Of a stretch of 64,000 nucleotides of DNA, positions 1-60,326 are shown piece by piece. The notes under the pieces were generated by a model. The model saw only the letters and a list, made by a program, of their open reading frames with translations, had not been told where the DNA came from and did not search any database. The stretch covers positions 1-64,000 of the forward strand of contig LODT01000004.1 in the NCBI GenBank assembly GCA_001606155.1, written 5' to 3'. Made by a program: the position numbers and the translations under genes. Origin of the DNA: Tieghemostelium lacteum. Lineage: Eukaryota > Evosea > Eumycetozoa > Dictyosteliales > Raperosteliaceae. How positions within the stretch are numbered: position 1 is the first letter of the stretch; each line of letters starts with the position of its first letter.

Positions 1-70
1 ACCCTACCCTACCCTACCCTACCCTACCCTACCCTACCCTACCCTACCCTACCCTACCCTACCCTACCCT
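1..70. repeat. Telomere repeat tract, (ACCCT)14
   Basis: Fourteen perfect ACCCT units fill the first 70 bases. Read toward the chromosome end, the other strand is (AGGGT)n, so the G-rich strand points outward as a true telomere requires. The unit is five bases (TAGGG), one base shorter than the common TTAGGG. The repeat becomes irregular right after position 70. Confidence 0.93.
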
Positions 71-110
71 CAGTTAACCTCACCTAACCTACCCTACCCA
101 CCAATGTATT
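71..110. repeat. Degenerate telomere-like junction
   Basis: TTAACCT, CACCTAACCT and ACCCTACCC variants follow the perfect tract. They look like decayed telomere units and share the AACCT core with the 10-bp repeat farther in. Confidence 0.6.
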
Positions 111-237
111 TGCTTACCGACTAGAGTTACAGAGAATTTACCTTCTTCTTTCTCCATACGTTTGTAGAATACCATCAATTACTTATATTACTCCTATGTA
201 TGCAAACCTACCCAATACGTGCATAGAAAACCATCAA

Positions 238-756
238 TAACCTTCAACAACCTTCAACAACCTTCAATAACCTTCAATAACCTTCATTAACCTTCAATAA
301 CCTTCATTAACCTTCAATAACCTTCATTAACCTTCAATAACCTTCATTAACCTTCAACAACCTTCATCAACCTTCAATTAACCTTCATTAACCTTCATTA
401 ACCTTCAACAACCTTCATTAACCTTCATCAACCTTCAACATTCATCAACCTTCATCAACCTTCAACAACCTTCATTAACTTTCATTAACCCTCAAAACCT
501 TCAACAACCTTCATCAACCTTCAACAACCTTCAACAACCTTCAATAACCTTCAATAACCTTCATTAACCCTCAACAACCTTCATCAACCTTCAATAACCT
601 TCAATAACCTTCATTAACCTTCAATAACCTTCATCAACCTTCATTAACCTTCATTAACCTTCAACAAACTTCATTAACCTTCATTAACCTTCATTCACCT
701 TAAATAACCTTCATTCACCTTAAATAACCTTCATTAACCTTCAATAACCTTCCAAT
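238..756. repeat. Subtelomeric 10-bp minisatellite (CCTTCAWYAA)
   Basis: About fifty tandem copies of a 10-base unit are seen, mainly CCTTCAATAA, CCTTCATTAA, CCTTCAACAA and CCTTCATCAA. A few copies have an extra or missing base. Positions 7 to 9 vary while CCTTCA and the final AA are nearly fixed. The plus strand has no G at all here. Position 111-237, between junction and repeat, is unique AT-rich sequence with no gene. Confidence 0.9.
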
Positions 757-1618
757 AACCCATAAAACTTTCCAACAATCTCCAATACCATTTTCCAAAC
801 CCTCCAACAATATCCAATACCTTTTAATAATCTTCAATTCCAACATTACTACACTGCCTTTCATTAATAAGCAATTTCAATCAGATTCAACCTAATCAAA
901 CCAACATTATAATCCAAGATCATCAAAATATATTTGAAATCCTGCTACTCTTTCGTAATATGATATCTTTGTTATTTAATATCAATTTATATTAATGAAT
1001 ATATTCAATACATTAATACTATTAACTCTGATCACCCCACCCATTAATATTTGCTAAAATAACACCATCATAGTTTCAATCACCACAACTGATACATTGC
1101 TTTCAGGTGATAATGGAACAACTCAACTTGACTAAAATATACAATATCATCAATAAACAGTGTTGATCTTTTATTGAGGCCACTACTGAATTGATGATAA
1201 ACAATAGTGATCTAATGTGTTACTAGATATGTTGTTGAATTTAATCTCTGCTGTATTATATTGGAGGATTATTTCCACTATTCTAAGATGGGGTAATAAG
1301 ACATTGATTGTATTGTCATACAATCCTTTAGTCAATATATCTATTTATCAAATTTAATGGGATTAATGAACCAAGAATATAAAAAGTCTTTTTATATTCT
1401 CTATCAAAATCTAAAGAATATAAACACTTGATCTTTCATCTGTGGTGCTTGTGTTTAGTAATACTTCCACAGCAACTATACTTATAGTAAATAAATCATA
1501 GTTATTTATCAAAACAAATTAAAATTTTACCCATTTTTAACAGTGATTCATTAATAAAAATTTTTTTTTTTTAATTTTTCATTTTAAACTTCAACAGTTG
1601 AAGTAACAACATCACAAT
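757..1618. other. Subtelomeric gene-poor stretch
   Basis: No convincing reading frame is present. Positions 758-765 read ACCCATAA, identical to the upstream element of Dictyostelium small-RNA genes, but no recognisable RNA follows about 60 bases later. Positions 1374-1400 form a near-perfect inverted repeat, listed separately. The last 100 bases are the promoter and leader of the SLY1 gene. No transposable element was recognised. Confidence 0.6.
1374..1400. repeat. 27-bp inverted repeat (hairpin)
   Basis: AGAATATAAAAAG and its exact reverse complement CTTTTTATATTCT face each other across a single T. The 13-bp arms would form a very stable hairpin in DNA or RNA. It lies about 220 bases upstream of the first gene. 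Confidence 0.8.
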
Positions 1619-27846: not shown

Positions 27847-28241
27847 TAATACTAACACAAAAATAAAAAATATTTTTTTTTTCTAAAATATTATAGCCAC
27901 CACCTGTCCTTTATTTTTATTCATGTAGAAAATTGCCTTCATTTAATCAAACACAAATCCATTGCATATGATTTTATATTAAACTTTGAAAAATTTCTTA
28001 TTTTATTTTTCAAAGATTTTATCAAAAATAGATTCTCTAAAAATTCCTTGCACTTTATATCTGTACAAATTGTTTTTTTTTTTTTTTTTATTTTTTTTAT
28101 TATCATTTTCTAGAGTTCTGGAATTTACACTTCAGTATAAATTTATATATTTGTATTTTTAAAATTAAAATTTTTATTATATTATATAATTTAGTTTTCA
28201 TTATAACAAAGTAGATATATATATATATATATTATTTAACA
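27847..28241. other. Spacer before the E2 gene
   Basis: A 395-base AT-rich spacer with T runs near 28074 and a TA dinucleotide repeat at about 28213-28231 just upstream of the E2 start. No gene or RNA was seen. Confidence 0.5.
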
Positions 28242-28843
28242 ATGGCAACTTCAAACAAACGTTTACAAAAGGTATGATATATTTTGATGTTAGATAACAA
28301 CAAAAACAACAAACAATAAAAGTCTGTTTACAAAATAAAATTAAGCAATTGCTAACCAAATTCTTTAATGGGAATTTTCCAATAACTCAAAAACAATAAC
28401 AACAACAACAACAACAACAATAGGAAATTACAGATATTTTAAAGACACCACCAACATGGTGCACAGCACAAGTTGTAGGTGATAACTTACATAAATGGAA
28501 AGCTACAGTTATTGGACCAGAAAACTCACCATATGAAAAGGGTAATTTCGAAATTGAATTGGATATCCCAGTTGACTACCCATTCAAACCACCCGCATTA
28601 AAATTCACCACTAAAATCTATCACCCAAATATCAAATCAGACGGTACTGTTTGCTCTGAATTACTCTCTCAGAACTGGAGTCCACAATTAAAGATTTTTG
28701 ATGTCCTAACCACTATTCGTTTACTCTTACAAGAACCAAACCCAGAATCACCTTTAGAAGTCGAAATTGCACAACAATTCAAAAATGACCGTAATGCTTT
28801 TAACAAGGCTGCTAAGGAATACTGCAAAAAGTATGCTAAATAA
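28242..28843 (+). CDS. Ubiquitin-conjugating enzyme E2 (UBE2L3/UBC4-like)
   Basis: E2 enzyme of 149 residues carrying ubiquitin from E1 to an E3. Exons are 28242-28271 and 28424-28843 (GTATGA donor, phase 0). The UBC fold is complete. PENSPYEKG precedes the DYPFKPP stretch, the HPN motif is at residues 77-79, and the active-site Cys is residue 87 in SDGTVCSELL. The C-terminal FNKAAKEYCKKYAK resembles UBE2L3 (UbcH7) more than UBC4. The intron ends in a CAA repeat. A RING-finger gene begins 281 bases downstream on the same strand. Codon use is C-rich, indicating good expression. Confidence 0.93.
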
Positions 28844-29124
28844 TAATAGTACTTGATACTCTCTAACAATAGAATATAATATAGTTTAAACACCTCTCCC
28901 ACAACCCCACTCCCTCTCAACTCCACAGACTAGCAAATTTAAAACCAACCCACAATATATATATTTTTATAAATAAAAATTACTTTTTTAATTATAATGT
29001 AACACGAACATCAAATAATACTCTCTTTATTTTCTATTTCCTAAAGTGATGAATTTCTTTGAAATTTTTAGAAAAGAATTTATTTTTTTTTTAAACTCTA
29101 AAACATGCATATTTGTTAATATTT

Positions 29125-30248
29125 ATGGCAAATTCAAACATTAAAAAGCCATTGGAATTACCAAATTTGAATGAAGAGGTTAATGATTTTATTCTGGACT
29201 TATTCAACAATGGAACATCATCAACACTTCCAGATAACGAATCATCTATATATGAGAATAACATTATACCTCAACAATCACCTTCAAAAACTCAAAGTAT
29301 AAACGATAAATATCAGTTTTTTAGTAATAGTAACTCATTAGATAAAGATGATTCTATTCAAAATTATTCAATAACTAGCCAAAAGTCTAATAACTCAGTT
29401 ATTCAAGATATAAAATGTTTATATAAAACACCTCCTATTCTACATCCATATTCAAATTTAAGCCCGTCTATTGTGAATATAGATAAAATTTCACCGATTA
29501 CTTCACCATATACGAATAATTTATTAAACAAACCAGATGGTAATAATAATAATTGTATAAATATATCACCATTACCACAGAATATTATTAATAGTCCGCC
29601 CACTAGTAAAAATACGTCTAATAATGTCTCTGTAAATACATCTGCTAATGATTCATCTACTTCAACAACTAGAAATTTATTAAATGATTTCTCATTAGAG
29701 TTATTTACATCTGATAAGAATCCTAATGATATTAATAGCCGAACAAATACATCCAATATAAGTGATTCAACTGTTCTCGATATTAATATTGATGACATTT
29801 TAAATAATGTTAATAATTCACCTCCTAATAATAATAATAATAATAATAATATTAATAATAATAATAATATTAATAATAATAATTCACAATCTTCATTTCA
29901 GCCACTACCACCACCACCTCCACTGGCAGTAATAGCAAAAGATAATTTAACACCTAAAAATACTAGTCAGCCTAATAACAATGAAAAGAACACTAATAAC
30001 AATTTTGAATTTAATCAACCAGTAATTCAAAGTACATCAACAACTACAAAAAAAAGTAAATATACTTTAGACTTCATCATCGACTAAATCAATAATATTA
30101 ATATTATTAAAAATTAGAAACTAAAAGAATAGATTATGATTTGATCACTGGAAAACGAATACCAATGAAGATGGTAAAAGGTTATTTGACACCTATCAAA
30201 AAGTCACCTACAGATAATTGTAAACCAAATAATGTAACTTTTAATAAC

Positions 30249-55280: not shown

Positions 55281-58200
55281 TAACAACAATAATAATCCAA
55301 TTATATCCAATGTTAAGAATAAAAGAGTATCAACTCCACCAAGTCCAGGTTCAAAATTAAAACATTTTTTACAGAGATCACTAAGAAGTAGTCCAAAATC
55401 AAAAACCCCATTAACTACTTCTCAACAACAACATTATATTAGTTCACCATTTGGTTTCATTCATCTTACTCATGTTGATTTTGATCCTGATAGTCAAGAG
55501 TTATGTGTATGTTTATGATTATAATATTTGACATATTTTTAAGGAACATCTAAAATTAATACATATTTATTTAATAGGGGTTACCTTTAGAATGGGGACA
55601 AACATTACAAAAATCAGTTGATAAGATGGTCACACATAGAAAAGATAGTACTGCAATGAGATCAATGGATGGTAGTATAGGTAATGGAAATGGTGATTTA
55701 ATACCACCTCCCTTCAAATTAGAACGTGAAGAAGAATCTTTTGAAAAGTTTAATACTATTCTACTAAATAAGGAAAAAGAAAAAGATAGAAAATCATCAC
55801 CTTTAGTAAATATAATATCTAGTATAGGTGGTAGTAGTAATTTAGTGAATAGTTTACAACAACAACAACAGAGTGGTACTAGAAAATCATCACCTATTAA
55901 ATTAATTGACACTCAAGGGTCACTTTCAACTAGTCATTTAATGGTACCTTCTAGTAATAATAATAATAGTCATAGTACTGGAAATAGTCCAAATAACAGT
56001 CCAAACACTCCAACATTTAGTAGTGTTCTAAATCAAAGTAGTACAATATCAAATAGTAGTGCATCAACATCACCAAATGCCTCACCATCAACCTCATTTA
56101 ATAAAGAGGACTTATTGATTTCTCATCCTACTTATATTAGACGTGAACTGCATATTGCATGGAACCAAGACACTGGTCAATTTGAAGGTGTTCCACAGGA
56201 ATGGGAACATTTAATGGCAGAAGTAACCACAGAGAAACAAAGAAAAAAGAATATGGAACAGCGTAAAAAATTAATTAGACAAGAGTCTTCTCAATACGAT
56301 AAAGAGGAGAAACAACGTCGTTTACAACGTGACAAACGTGAGAGATCACGTCTCATTAAAGATGAACGTAGAAAATCAGTTTATGTCGAACGTGGTAAAG
56401 GTGATCCTGTACCTATACAACTACCAACACCACAACAAAAACTCATTAATCAATTTGCTCCTTCACTCTGGCAAATCTCAGGTACACAAATTCTAAAAAC
56501 CAAAAGAATAGCACTCTCTTTGGAGGCAATCTGTAAAAATGATGTTTTTATATTAGATTCTGGTAAGATAATTTACGTGTGGTTCGGTGAGGATTCATCC
56601 CTACAAAAACAAGTTAGAGCATGTTCCATTTCCAATAAGATTAAGTATGATAATCAAACAGTTCTCCTACCAACAATTGAATTTGTAATGGAGAAAATTG
56701 ATTTGGATTTAGAAAAAGATTTCTTTTCCATTTTATATCAATATTCAAATTTAAATAATAATAATAATAATAATACGATACCTAGTGATTTTAAAGTTAC
56801 AAAAATTGGTAATTCAAATGATCAACAATTATCAGAAGAGGAATCATCAACTACTTGGTTGTATAGAGTAAATGAAAATGGTAAAATTAATGTAATTGAA
56901 GATAGACCAATTCTACCAACATTTTTAAATAGTAATACATGTTATATATTGGATTGTGAAACTGATATATTTGTATGGAATGGTAAATATGCACATCAAC
57001 TAAAACAAAAAGCTGCACTTATATTTGCTAGAGAGTTTTTAAATATATTCTCTGGTAGACCAAATTGGGCATCTATACACGTTGTACACCAATCTGAGGA
57101 ACCGTGGTTCTTTAAGGAACGTTTCTTGTATTGGTTAGAAGATGAATCTATTGTTGATAACACCAGACGTAATACAACTGCAATGAGACAAACTGGTGGA
57201 AGTGGTACACGTGCACTATTTTCCAACCCATTACCTATTCCACTTGACAATAACTTCCATGTTGGTGATCTTTTTAATATACCTGATGTATTTCAAAAAT
57301 CTATACAGTCTAGTAGTAACAGTCCTTTGATATCAATGATGCAACATGTCTCTTTAGACATTTGGAAATCTGAAGCAAACTCTTGGAAAAAAGTACCCAA
57401 TGAGATTTACGGTCACTTTGATAGCAATAGATGCTATGTATGTCACCATATTTTCCTAATTGGTGGAAAATATCAGAGTAAAGTTTACTTTTGGCAGGGT
57501 TGTAATGCACCTATTAGATGGTGGATTGTCTTTCAGTTTTTCCTTTACAAAGAGCTATCTGAACATATGAATCAATTAGATGCTCCACCTCCATCCACTG
57601 AATGTCTCACACAATCTAAAGAGTCTATAGAATTTTTAAAATTATTTAAACACATTTTTATTCATCAACATGCTAATCTAAGTAATAACATTAGTGATAC
57701 TGCAACTGATATGACTTCTACAACCGATCAGTCTTCATCACTAATGACTAGCTCATTTATACCTCAATCAATATCCAATTATTCCATGTCGTCAATTTCT
57801 ACAAGTTCATCATTTTCATCATCATCATTGTTGGCTCATGCTATTGGAAATAGTTCGAGTAGTAATCTATTGTTTTCAAACTCTAAATCCATTCTCTATC
57901 AATTGACTAGTATTGGAGGTGGTATAGCTAGTCGTTCTGTACAATTCCGTGAAGGATTTGAAATTTCTTGTCTAAACAGTCGAGATATTTTCATATTCTA
58001 CAGTTTTTCTGCAAAAACAATTTTTGTGTGGTATGGTAAAGGTTCTCCAAAAGACATAAGACCATTCACTAAAAAGATTGCAGAATCCATTCACCAATAC
58101 TACCAAAACATTGAGGAGATATCTAAACAAGATTCAGCACTCATTGTAGAATGTGAAGAAGGTCAAGAACCAACCATCTTTTGGAAACTCTTCTTATCAT

Positions 58201-59420
58201 GTTCGTGTCGTAACCATGAAATCTATCAAAGACTAATGAAATCTCCACATAAACGTGACCTCTATGTATCCAATAACTACTACACCAATTCAGAACTCAA
58301 CAGTACCCAACAAATTAGATTCTATCATGTATTTTATAACCCACGTATAAAAGGTTATGTAATTCTAAGAATCAATCCATTCTGTCAGAATGATCTATGT
58401 GAAGACGATGCATTTATCCTAGACTGTTTCTTTAAACTATTTGTATGGGTAGGTCCAAGCTGTTCAAAGAAAAAGAGAGAATGTGTTGAAAATCTAGCTC
58501 AACAGTATATTCAACATTCCAATGCAGAATCTGAAATTATAATAGTAGAGGCATATCAAGAACCACCTGAATTCAAATCCTACTTCCAAGGATGGTCAAA
58601 TGACCAAGTATTGGTATCCATGAGAAACAATCAACAATCAATCATTGGTGTTGAAGCTGATTATAGATTGATTAACTCTATTGTATCTACATCCAATCTA
58701 GAGGAAAACTATCACCAAGTGGATTCCAGTGACGAACTTGACAGTCCAATTAATTTATCACCTACATCATCACCACCAAATACCTCAATCCTCACACGTG
58801 TCAATACTAATGAAATTGAATCTATGGAACCTTGGGAACTTGACCTTTTACAACAAGTTGAAACCATCATTCCAAAAGAACGAAAAAGAGGTACTACCTC
58901 TCCAATCCTCGATAATAGTGGTAGTAACCATTCTCATCCTTTATCACCACTAAAATATTCAAGTACCATCGCAACAGCAGGTTCAGACGATTCATCAGAT
59001 CTCTCTACTACACCTAGTGATGCTGTTGTCTCTGACTATGAATCTGATGATGAGTATGATTTTGAACTAAGAAAACCCAGTAGAAAATCAATTAATCTCA
59101 GAAAGAAGTCATTCTCTAACTACCAATTCCAAGGTATTTCCATTTCACCAGTTTCCAAAAACAAACTATTAGAATTAGCTCATGTAAATAATGCCAAAGT
59201 CAGAAAAAGAGGTTCTAGTGTCATGGCTCATCATCATCATCTACTAAAACAAATTAAACATAAATCATCCATTTTCTCTCCAAATCACCCTCACAGTGGT
59301 TCAATTGATGCTAAATCAATTCAAGTGCTAAAAGAAGCAAAAGCCTATCAAGAACTAGATGATGAAATTCAAAAAATGGAAACTGAATTTTCAAAAGTAA
59401 TTGATAATGATCCTAATACC

Positions 59421-59464
<44 letters not shown>

Positions 59465-60326
59465 CAATAATAATAACAATAATAATAATAACAATAATAA
59501 TAATAATAGTACAACAACACCATTAACAAAGATAATAGAATCTCCAAAAGAAACAACTGTACAACTTGAAATTAAAACAGAAAAACCAACTAATATTAAT
59601 AAAAATAATAAAAATAATAATAGTAGTAATTGTACAAACAGTCAAGAACAAGAGAAACAACAAGAACAACAACAAGAACAGCAACAACAAAAACCTATAC
59701 CAAAACCAAATATTGTAAATAGAAACAATCAAAAGATTCCGGCAAAACCCAACCCATTATCATTAAAGAAAATTGTATCAAAAGCTAATGCAAAAGCATC
59801 ACCAAGATCATCACCATCAAATACCTCATCCCCTATTACCTCACCAGTTATATCACCAATGACATCTCCAAAACAATCTTCTGAATCTTTATTAATTACT
59901 TCTGATGATGATAATTGTAGTAATAGTGATAAAAGACCATCTTCACCAACTTCAATATCTACAACTTCTGCTACTAAAAATACAATAGTTACTAATCTTA
60001 GAGAGAGTAAAGATAACAATAATGGTAGTAATATATCACCAAAACTAGTTGGATCACCAATTACATCATCACCAACCATAAACTCTATAAAATCACCAAT
60101 TCAAATTCAGAGATCAATGTCAACTAAAGAACTGATTAATAATGCTGAAAAGAAAATTAGAGATATCTCAGAACAGGTTCAAAAAACAAATTCACCAAGA
60201 CAGTTACATAGATCAAATTCCAATCTTCCTATACAACCACAACCACAACAACCACCTCAACCACAACCAACCACTTCAAAATTTAAACCAATTTCCAATT
60301 CAACCTCAAGATCTTTTGATAGATAA
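55144..60326 (+). CDS. Large gelsolin/villin-family protein with two CRIB motifs
   Basis: Exons are 55144-55506 and 55578-60326 (GTATGT donor, phase 0), giving 1703 residues. After a poly-Asn run, residues 99-133 form a near-perfect CRIB motif (ISSPFGFIHLTHVDFD) continuing across the splice into GLPLEWGQTL. A second, weaker one lies at about 302-334 (ISHPTYIRRELHIAWNQD, then TGQFEGVPQEWEHLM). A basic helix and at least five gelsolin-like repeats follow (DVFILDSGKIIYVWFG, TCYILDCETDIFVWNG, IFIFYSFSAKTIFVWYG, AFILDCFFKLFVWVG). The last 500 residues are low complexity with poly-Asn. It likely links Rac/Cdc42-type GTPases to actin severing or capping. No villin headpiece was seen. Confidence 0.88.

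Follow-up and report, generated by a model that had tools for sequence, protein, structure and literature searches.

The R element of Kluyveromyces lactis lies in the distal subtelomere and shows a strong purine/pyrimidine bias between its strands. The human minisatellite CEB25 (10q26.3) is tabulated with an absolute GC strand bias (100%), and its effect on rearrangements in yeast is reported to depend on its orientation relative to the telomere (PMC3486850). Many human subtelomeres are reported to have positive GC skew immediately after predicted TERRA start sites, with hybrid formation at these places (PMC5286223). Among social amoebae, the ends of the rDNA palindrome of Dictyostelium discoideum are described as carrying tandem motifs of 28-29 and 81 bases just inside the G-rich end (PMC6759168). 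In the published assembly of Dictyostelium (Tieghemostelium) lacteum, 54 contigs amount to 23.4 Mb, and the chromosome ends are described as having ordinary telomeres (PMC4931340).

The T. lacteum array considered here joins the subtelomeric minisatellites, an already known class: it consists of short tandem units with variants, adjoins telomere repeats, is common to a number of chromosome ends and varies in copy number. One of its strands lacks G over hundreds of bases, and such a striking asymmetry can follow from the copying of one G-less 10-base unit. The window, meaning the whole 64-kb stretch analyzed (the first 64,000 bases of contig LODT01000004.1), is the left end of contig C2 (C2L), and the genome searched comprised 43 contigs with 23,333,832 bases.

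The G-free block and its surroundings

The original prediction, made from the letters of the window, was that the plus strand has no G at all from 227 to 855. This is exact. The 629 bases contain 228 A, 208 C and 193 T and form the longest G-free run of the window, the runner-up having only 107 bases; a first-order model of the window assigns a run like this, from a given start, a probability of 8e-41. Minisatellite makes up 532 bases of the block and the decayed inner edge of the array 95. The features of this end are:

1 to 99, plus strand: telomere tract (ACCCT)n, C-rich strand, perfect to about 70 with a degenerate inner edge at 71-99 (Tandem Repeats Finder and sequence)
100 to 228, plus strand: distal non-repetitive segment from telomere to array, with 15 G (composition and alignment)
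229 to 760, plus strand: minisatellite with the 10-base unit AACCTTCAAT, 53.4 copies, 0 G (Tandem Repeats Finder and composition)
761 to 867, plus strand: decayed inner array edge, G-free up to 855 and common to other ends (alignment to the repeating unit; shared strings)
868 to 1021, plus strand: remainder of the shared subtelomeric segment, G present (matches with other ends; composition of 856-1021)

Within 229-760 there are 85% matches between the 53.4 copies of 10 bases (Tandem Repeats Finder), and variation among copies of AACCTTCAAT is common at the last two unit positions. The stretch at 761-855 is best read as decayed array because alignment to the repeating unit runs on to 867. Further inside, several matches with other ends stop at query positions 1009-1025.

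It had also been held that the telomere tract itself is G-free and that its asymmetry extends into the subtelomere with the same polarity. Positions 1-99 contain one G, the G-free run of the tract being 1-72, and between telomere and block come 127 bases (100-226) with 15 G, which break the G-free state. What survives of the claim is the polarity, which is the same at all 17 ends that carry the array.

In the first 1000 bases of this end, G-quadruplex motifs of the three-G type lie in the telomere tract, and one of the two-G type lies in 229-855. The G-rich strand of the first 300 array bases folds at -40.4 kcal/mol; the mean of 20 mononucleotide shuffles is -26.8, and both strands of one control stretch reach about -42. 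The C-rich strand of the same bases, taken as RNA, gives 0 kcal/mol, as do its mononucleotide shuffles. An Rfam scan of 1-1620 returned just two matches, far below gathering scores. Away from the end, the kilobases at 58001-60000 and 28001-30000 of the window have GC skews of -0.17 to -0.32 and consist in part of AAC/CAA repeats.

Array-bearing and array-less chromosome ends

We read 66 of the 86 contig ends. All 43 left ends are among them, at positions 1-6000 in C1-C40 and over less sequence in C41-C43; of the 23 right ends read, 12 were covered as 300 bases only. The remaining 20 right ends were covered by DNA similarity search and telomere patterns, among the matches listed (for the 20-base pattern to within C17 and for the 50-base pattern to within C27).

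The array is present at 17 ends (C2L, C2R, C4L, C6R, C9L, C10R, C12L, C15R, C16L, C19L, C20L, C22R, C29L, C31R, C39R, C41R and C42L), and at 17 of 17 its C-rich strand has the polarity of the telomere. A telomere tract is found at 12 of these; C4L is cut at the telomere edge, and four contigs end or begin inside the array, which is therefore cut by the contig edge (C10R, C16L, C19L and C29L). Uncut arrays range from 284 to 999 bases, copy number differing between ends. At C39R, one of the 12 tract-bearing ends, the array begins 74 bases inside the last perfect telomere pair; at the other 11 this distance is 157-171 bases. The longest G-free runs are 858 (C9L), 783, 740, 629 (C2L), 546, 505, 497, 488, 488, 436, 391, 381, 346, 268, 245, 192 and 191 bases (C2R).

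Six other ends have a telomere tract and no array (C7L, C8L, C30L, C17R, C23R and C27R). They carry a different shared element, outside the telomere tract none has a long G-free run, and G is present within 50 bases of the tract at each. The array-less ends, belonging to the same genome, act as a built-in control that speaks against a general end effect. The original prediction had proposed looking at the other chromosome ends for a G-free block of the same orientation, as a sign of a general mechanism, and had named ends lacking the skew as the outcome that would speak against one. Seventeen ends have the block and six telomere-bearing ends do not, and a rule for every end is given up on the prediction's own terms.

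Skew leads to the same conclusion about a strand-biased domain common to all ends. In the majority sequence of the array-less element, skew is -0.33 in the first 200-base window, -0.32 in the second and +0.54 in the fourth; for the first two, comparison with 800 ordinary windows from 40 contig-start loci (beyond base 2000) gives one-sided values of 0.096 and 0.099, inside the ordinary spread. The distal 123 bases at four array ends have skews of -0.30 to -0.32. Neither the array-less element nor these distal bases give evidence of a compositional strand bias general to the ends; the skew of subtelomeric DNA outside the array falls inside the spread of ordinary windows. An end-wide G-free state is ruled out by the six telomere ends without the block and their ordinary skew.

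C39R (L052) is a hybrid end, in which a telomeric junction of the array-less type is followed by the G-less array; it is likely a recombination product of the two end types. A second subtelomeric family adjoins the telomere at six ends (L015, L016, L038, L053, L054 and L055), with about 450-600 bases matched; it contains short inverted matches, and its alignment has G>A above C>T. Long repeat arrays also occur near the contig starts of L035 (1-1204) and L043 (12-4181), with periods mostly divisible by three, and are coding-like. An internal match at C17:535464 was judged by eye to be a different repeat.

The unit, its variants and the place of G in the arrays

A founder unit without G would be unremarkable, because 25.9% of the 10-mers of the window (from 1101 on) have no G and 47.9% lack G or C; 27.1% have no C, and 17.3% lack one of the two while holding at least 3 of the other. 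As to where the unit came from, the genome holds 7 copies of CCTTCACTAACCTACC, one unit joined to telomere-like letters, and all 7 lie in degenerate telomeric junctions, those of the six array-less ends and of C39R. A wider pattern around it has 28 matches, one of them (in C21) away from these ends. The edge motif of the telomere tract at 1-99 is found at 12 places genome-wide at no more than 3 mismatches, two of these overlapping in C20. Shuffling the 37-base telomeric junction 200,000 times yields the unit motif CCTTCANNAACC in 220 cases, and both strands of 222 kb of control DNA have none (160 kb of loci and 62 kb of the window, 4 kb being counted twice). The confinement of CCTTCACTAACCTACC to the junctions of seven ends, and the rarity of CCTTCANNAACC in shuffles and its absence from controls, favor birth at the telomere edge. 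They suggest that a junction gave rise to the array, a direction that could also have been the reverse. With its single junction unit, this minisatellite is a specific example of one that may have arisen at the edge of a telomere.

Derivation from telomere repeats, one of the explanations put forward earlier, gains support in this form: the lone unit copy in degenerate telomere sequence at 7 ends suggests a telomere-edge source, although the unit is no close variant of the 5-base telomere repeat. Nor is the array a degenerate part of the telomere tract, Tandem Repeats Finder giving separate arrays for ACCCT (period 5) and AACCTTCAAT (period 10). That the unit might be two degenerate 5-base telomere units was set aside on reasoning alone.

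The arrays contain 116 non-consensus unit strings (counted by overlapping matches, phase-shifted strings included), of which 59 are private to one end and the others shared, and two early positions are occupied by G in six of the arrays. On the inner side, C2R/C22R/C39R, C19L/C41R and the main group each join a different sequence, which makes at least three kinds of border, and C31R rejoins the main-group sequence; C10R and C29L, anchored on a distant motif, were left out of this assessment. Shared and private variants together with differing inner borders are the pattern expected of local amplification and recombination between ends. Over 12 ends (C39R dropped), identity to the consensus is 98.5% in the 130 bases preceding the array. 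The segment at 100-228 of the window and its counterparts at 11 other ends are near-identical while the arrays differ in length and units; this near-identity would reflect either recent exchange or constraint.

Pooled over the 17 arrays, 60 G are present in 10,726 bases. When arrays were simulated at this pooled, uniform G rate (5,000 simulations), the longest G-free run over 17 arrays had a median of 605 bases; runs of at least 629 appeared in 42% of simulations and of 858, the length seen at C9L, in 1.4% (P=0.014). G variants can arise and be multiplied, since C4L has four copies of the G-bearing unit AACCTTCAGC and C2R has one. Strict exclusion of G is ruled out by the 60 G and by this multiplied unit. 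In C4L (L012) the G-bearing unit CCTTCAGCAACC has been multiplied locally, at about 546-690.

A milder depletion was sought in the 586 changes from the unit, 53 of which are to G, including 19 at one two-state position that was left out of the comparison of observed with expected numbers. The latter came from the substitution spectrum of the array-less ends. Counted by copies, 34 changes to G were observed at the other positions vs. 63-78 expected; counted once per array, position and base, 29 vs. 30-38; and by distinct one-change units, 5 vs. 5.6-7.0. What depletion is left may be anything from none to about two-fold, because the count by copies is inflated by copying while the other two saturate for common changes, and the saturation of the once-per-array count (29 vs. 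30-38) favors the conclusion of simple copying.

Copying, its rivals and known systems

We consider the G-free block to be part of an ordinary subtelomeric minisatellite family, in which a G-less unit was multiplied and spread among ends, and would give this reading a probability of roughly 0.8. The 10-base unit was probably taken from degenerate telomere-edge sequence and would have been multiplied through slippage or unequal exchange, mechanisms that we infer from the pattern of variants and borders. The array would then have spread between chromosome ends through end-to-end recombination, which preserves its orientation relative to the telomere. A unit without G, once copied, gives a G-free run with no bar against G being needed. 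Copying accounts for most or all of the run, with room left for a mild bias beside it. All 17 arrays presumably go back to one founder, in which case their agreement in polarity counts once. Against simple copying stand the lower frequency of A>G than of T>C in the arrays, the 34 changes to G by copies where 63-78 were expected, the excess of G>A over C>T and of G>C over C>G at the array-less ends, and the run of 858 at C9L (P=0.014).

The first of these points is also what would be seen if strand-biased mutation or repair near ends, for example with one-way replication towards the end, depleted G on the C-rich strand, as had been proposed earlier. In the arrays, A>G is rarer than T>C both by copies (18/3,192 vs. 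97/2,122) and per array and position (14/51 vs. 31/34), and the decayed inner edge is still G-free up to 855. The array-less ends have more G>A than C>T (39/81 vs. 27/107 sites, p=0.0013) and likewise more G>C than C>G (11/81 vs. 3/107, p=0.009), both pointing to G loss on the C-rich strand; these tests take the majority consensus of six sequences as ancestor, with p values per single test. The same ends, however, show no difference between A>G and T>C (30/260 vs. 41/307, p=0.53), and the pairs T>G/A>C (p=0.30) and G>T/C>A (p=0.37) do not differ either. Over the first 500 columns, which are nearest the telomere and best aligned (alignment being poor beyond), G>A no longer differs from C>T (11/42 vs. 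13/83, p=0.23), nor A>G from T>C (p=0.54). The distal segment at 12 array ends, nearer the telomere than the array, has G>A at 0/15 vs. C>T at 3/31 and A>G at 2/39 vs. T>C at 0/43. The deficit of A>G in the arrays arises in part because A positions there change little to any base (87/3,192); G makes up 21% of those changes, compared with 33% (30/90) at the array-less ends or 24% (4/17) in their first 500 columns. Six telomere-bearing ends, moreover, have no G-free block, with G within 50 bases of the tract. Two strand asymmetries are left over, A>G below T>C in the arrays and G>A above C>T at the array-less ends; they are a reason to keep biased mutation in view, not proof of such a bias, and as the cause of the block we hold it to be improbable.

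Selection has been invoked for the opposite strand, as keeping a C-free, G-rich, telomere-directed putative transcript of the TERRA kind, or a strand that forms R-loops. TERRA corresponds to the G-rich strand and runs toward the telomere, and the G-rich strand of the array has this polarity. The GC skew and DNA:RNA hybrids reported for human subtelomeres (PMC5286223) are also in its favor. Yet six ends manage without the array, the length of uncut arrays varies from 284 to 999 bases, and shared descent, if we are right about it, reduces the agreement in polarity to a single event, so that selection of this kind seems very unlikely. A different role for the G-rich strand can be imagined if the telomere-edge motif was turned into a telomere-polarized reserve: ATTGAAGGTT could still bind telomere single-strand proteins (a putative binding) or prime telomerase, broken ends could heal inside the array, and G on the C-rich strand would for that reason be mildly counter-selected. 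We regard this as quite improbable. An artefact of assembly or sequencing is extremely unlikely, the array being found at 17 ends with differing lengths, variants and flanks, even if four arrays break at a contig edge (C10R, C16L, C19L and C29L) and some copy numbers are accordingly uncertain.

Among known systems, the R element of K. lactis is similar in its general description, although organism and unit differ. The rDNA palindrome ends of D. discoideum are alike in having tandem motifs just inside the end, and in a social amoeba; they have other units and A(G)n ends, and no G-free minisatellite is described in the parts of that account bearing on the comparison (PMC6759168). In the literature searched (titles and the starts of abstracts, among the matches listed), we found no description of the array, which may already be drawn in a supplementary figure on D. 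lacteum chromosome ends (PMC4931340). The likeness to CEB25 is that of a minisatellite with complete GC strand bias; CEB25, as described, has a 52-base unit with Cdc13 binding sites and lies 1.4 Mb from its telomere (PMC3486850), whereas the T. lacteum unit has 10 bases, is AT-rich and lies about 160 bases inside the perfect telomere tract. We class the array among the subtelomeric minisatellites; a minisatellite with complete GC strand bias has a precedent in CEB25 (PMC3486850), and GC skew with DNA:RNA hybrids has been reported for human subtelomeres (PMC5286223).
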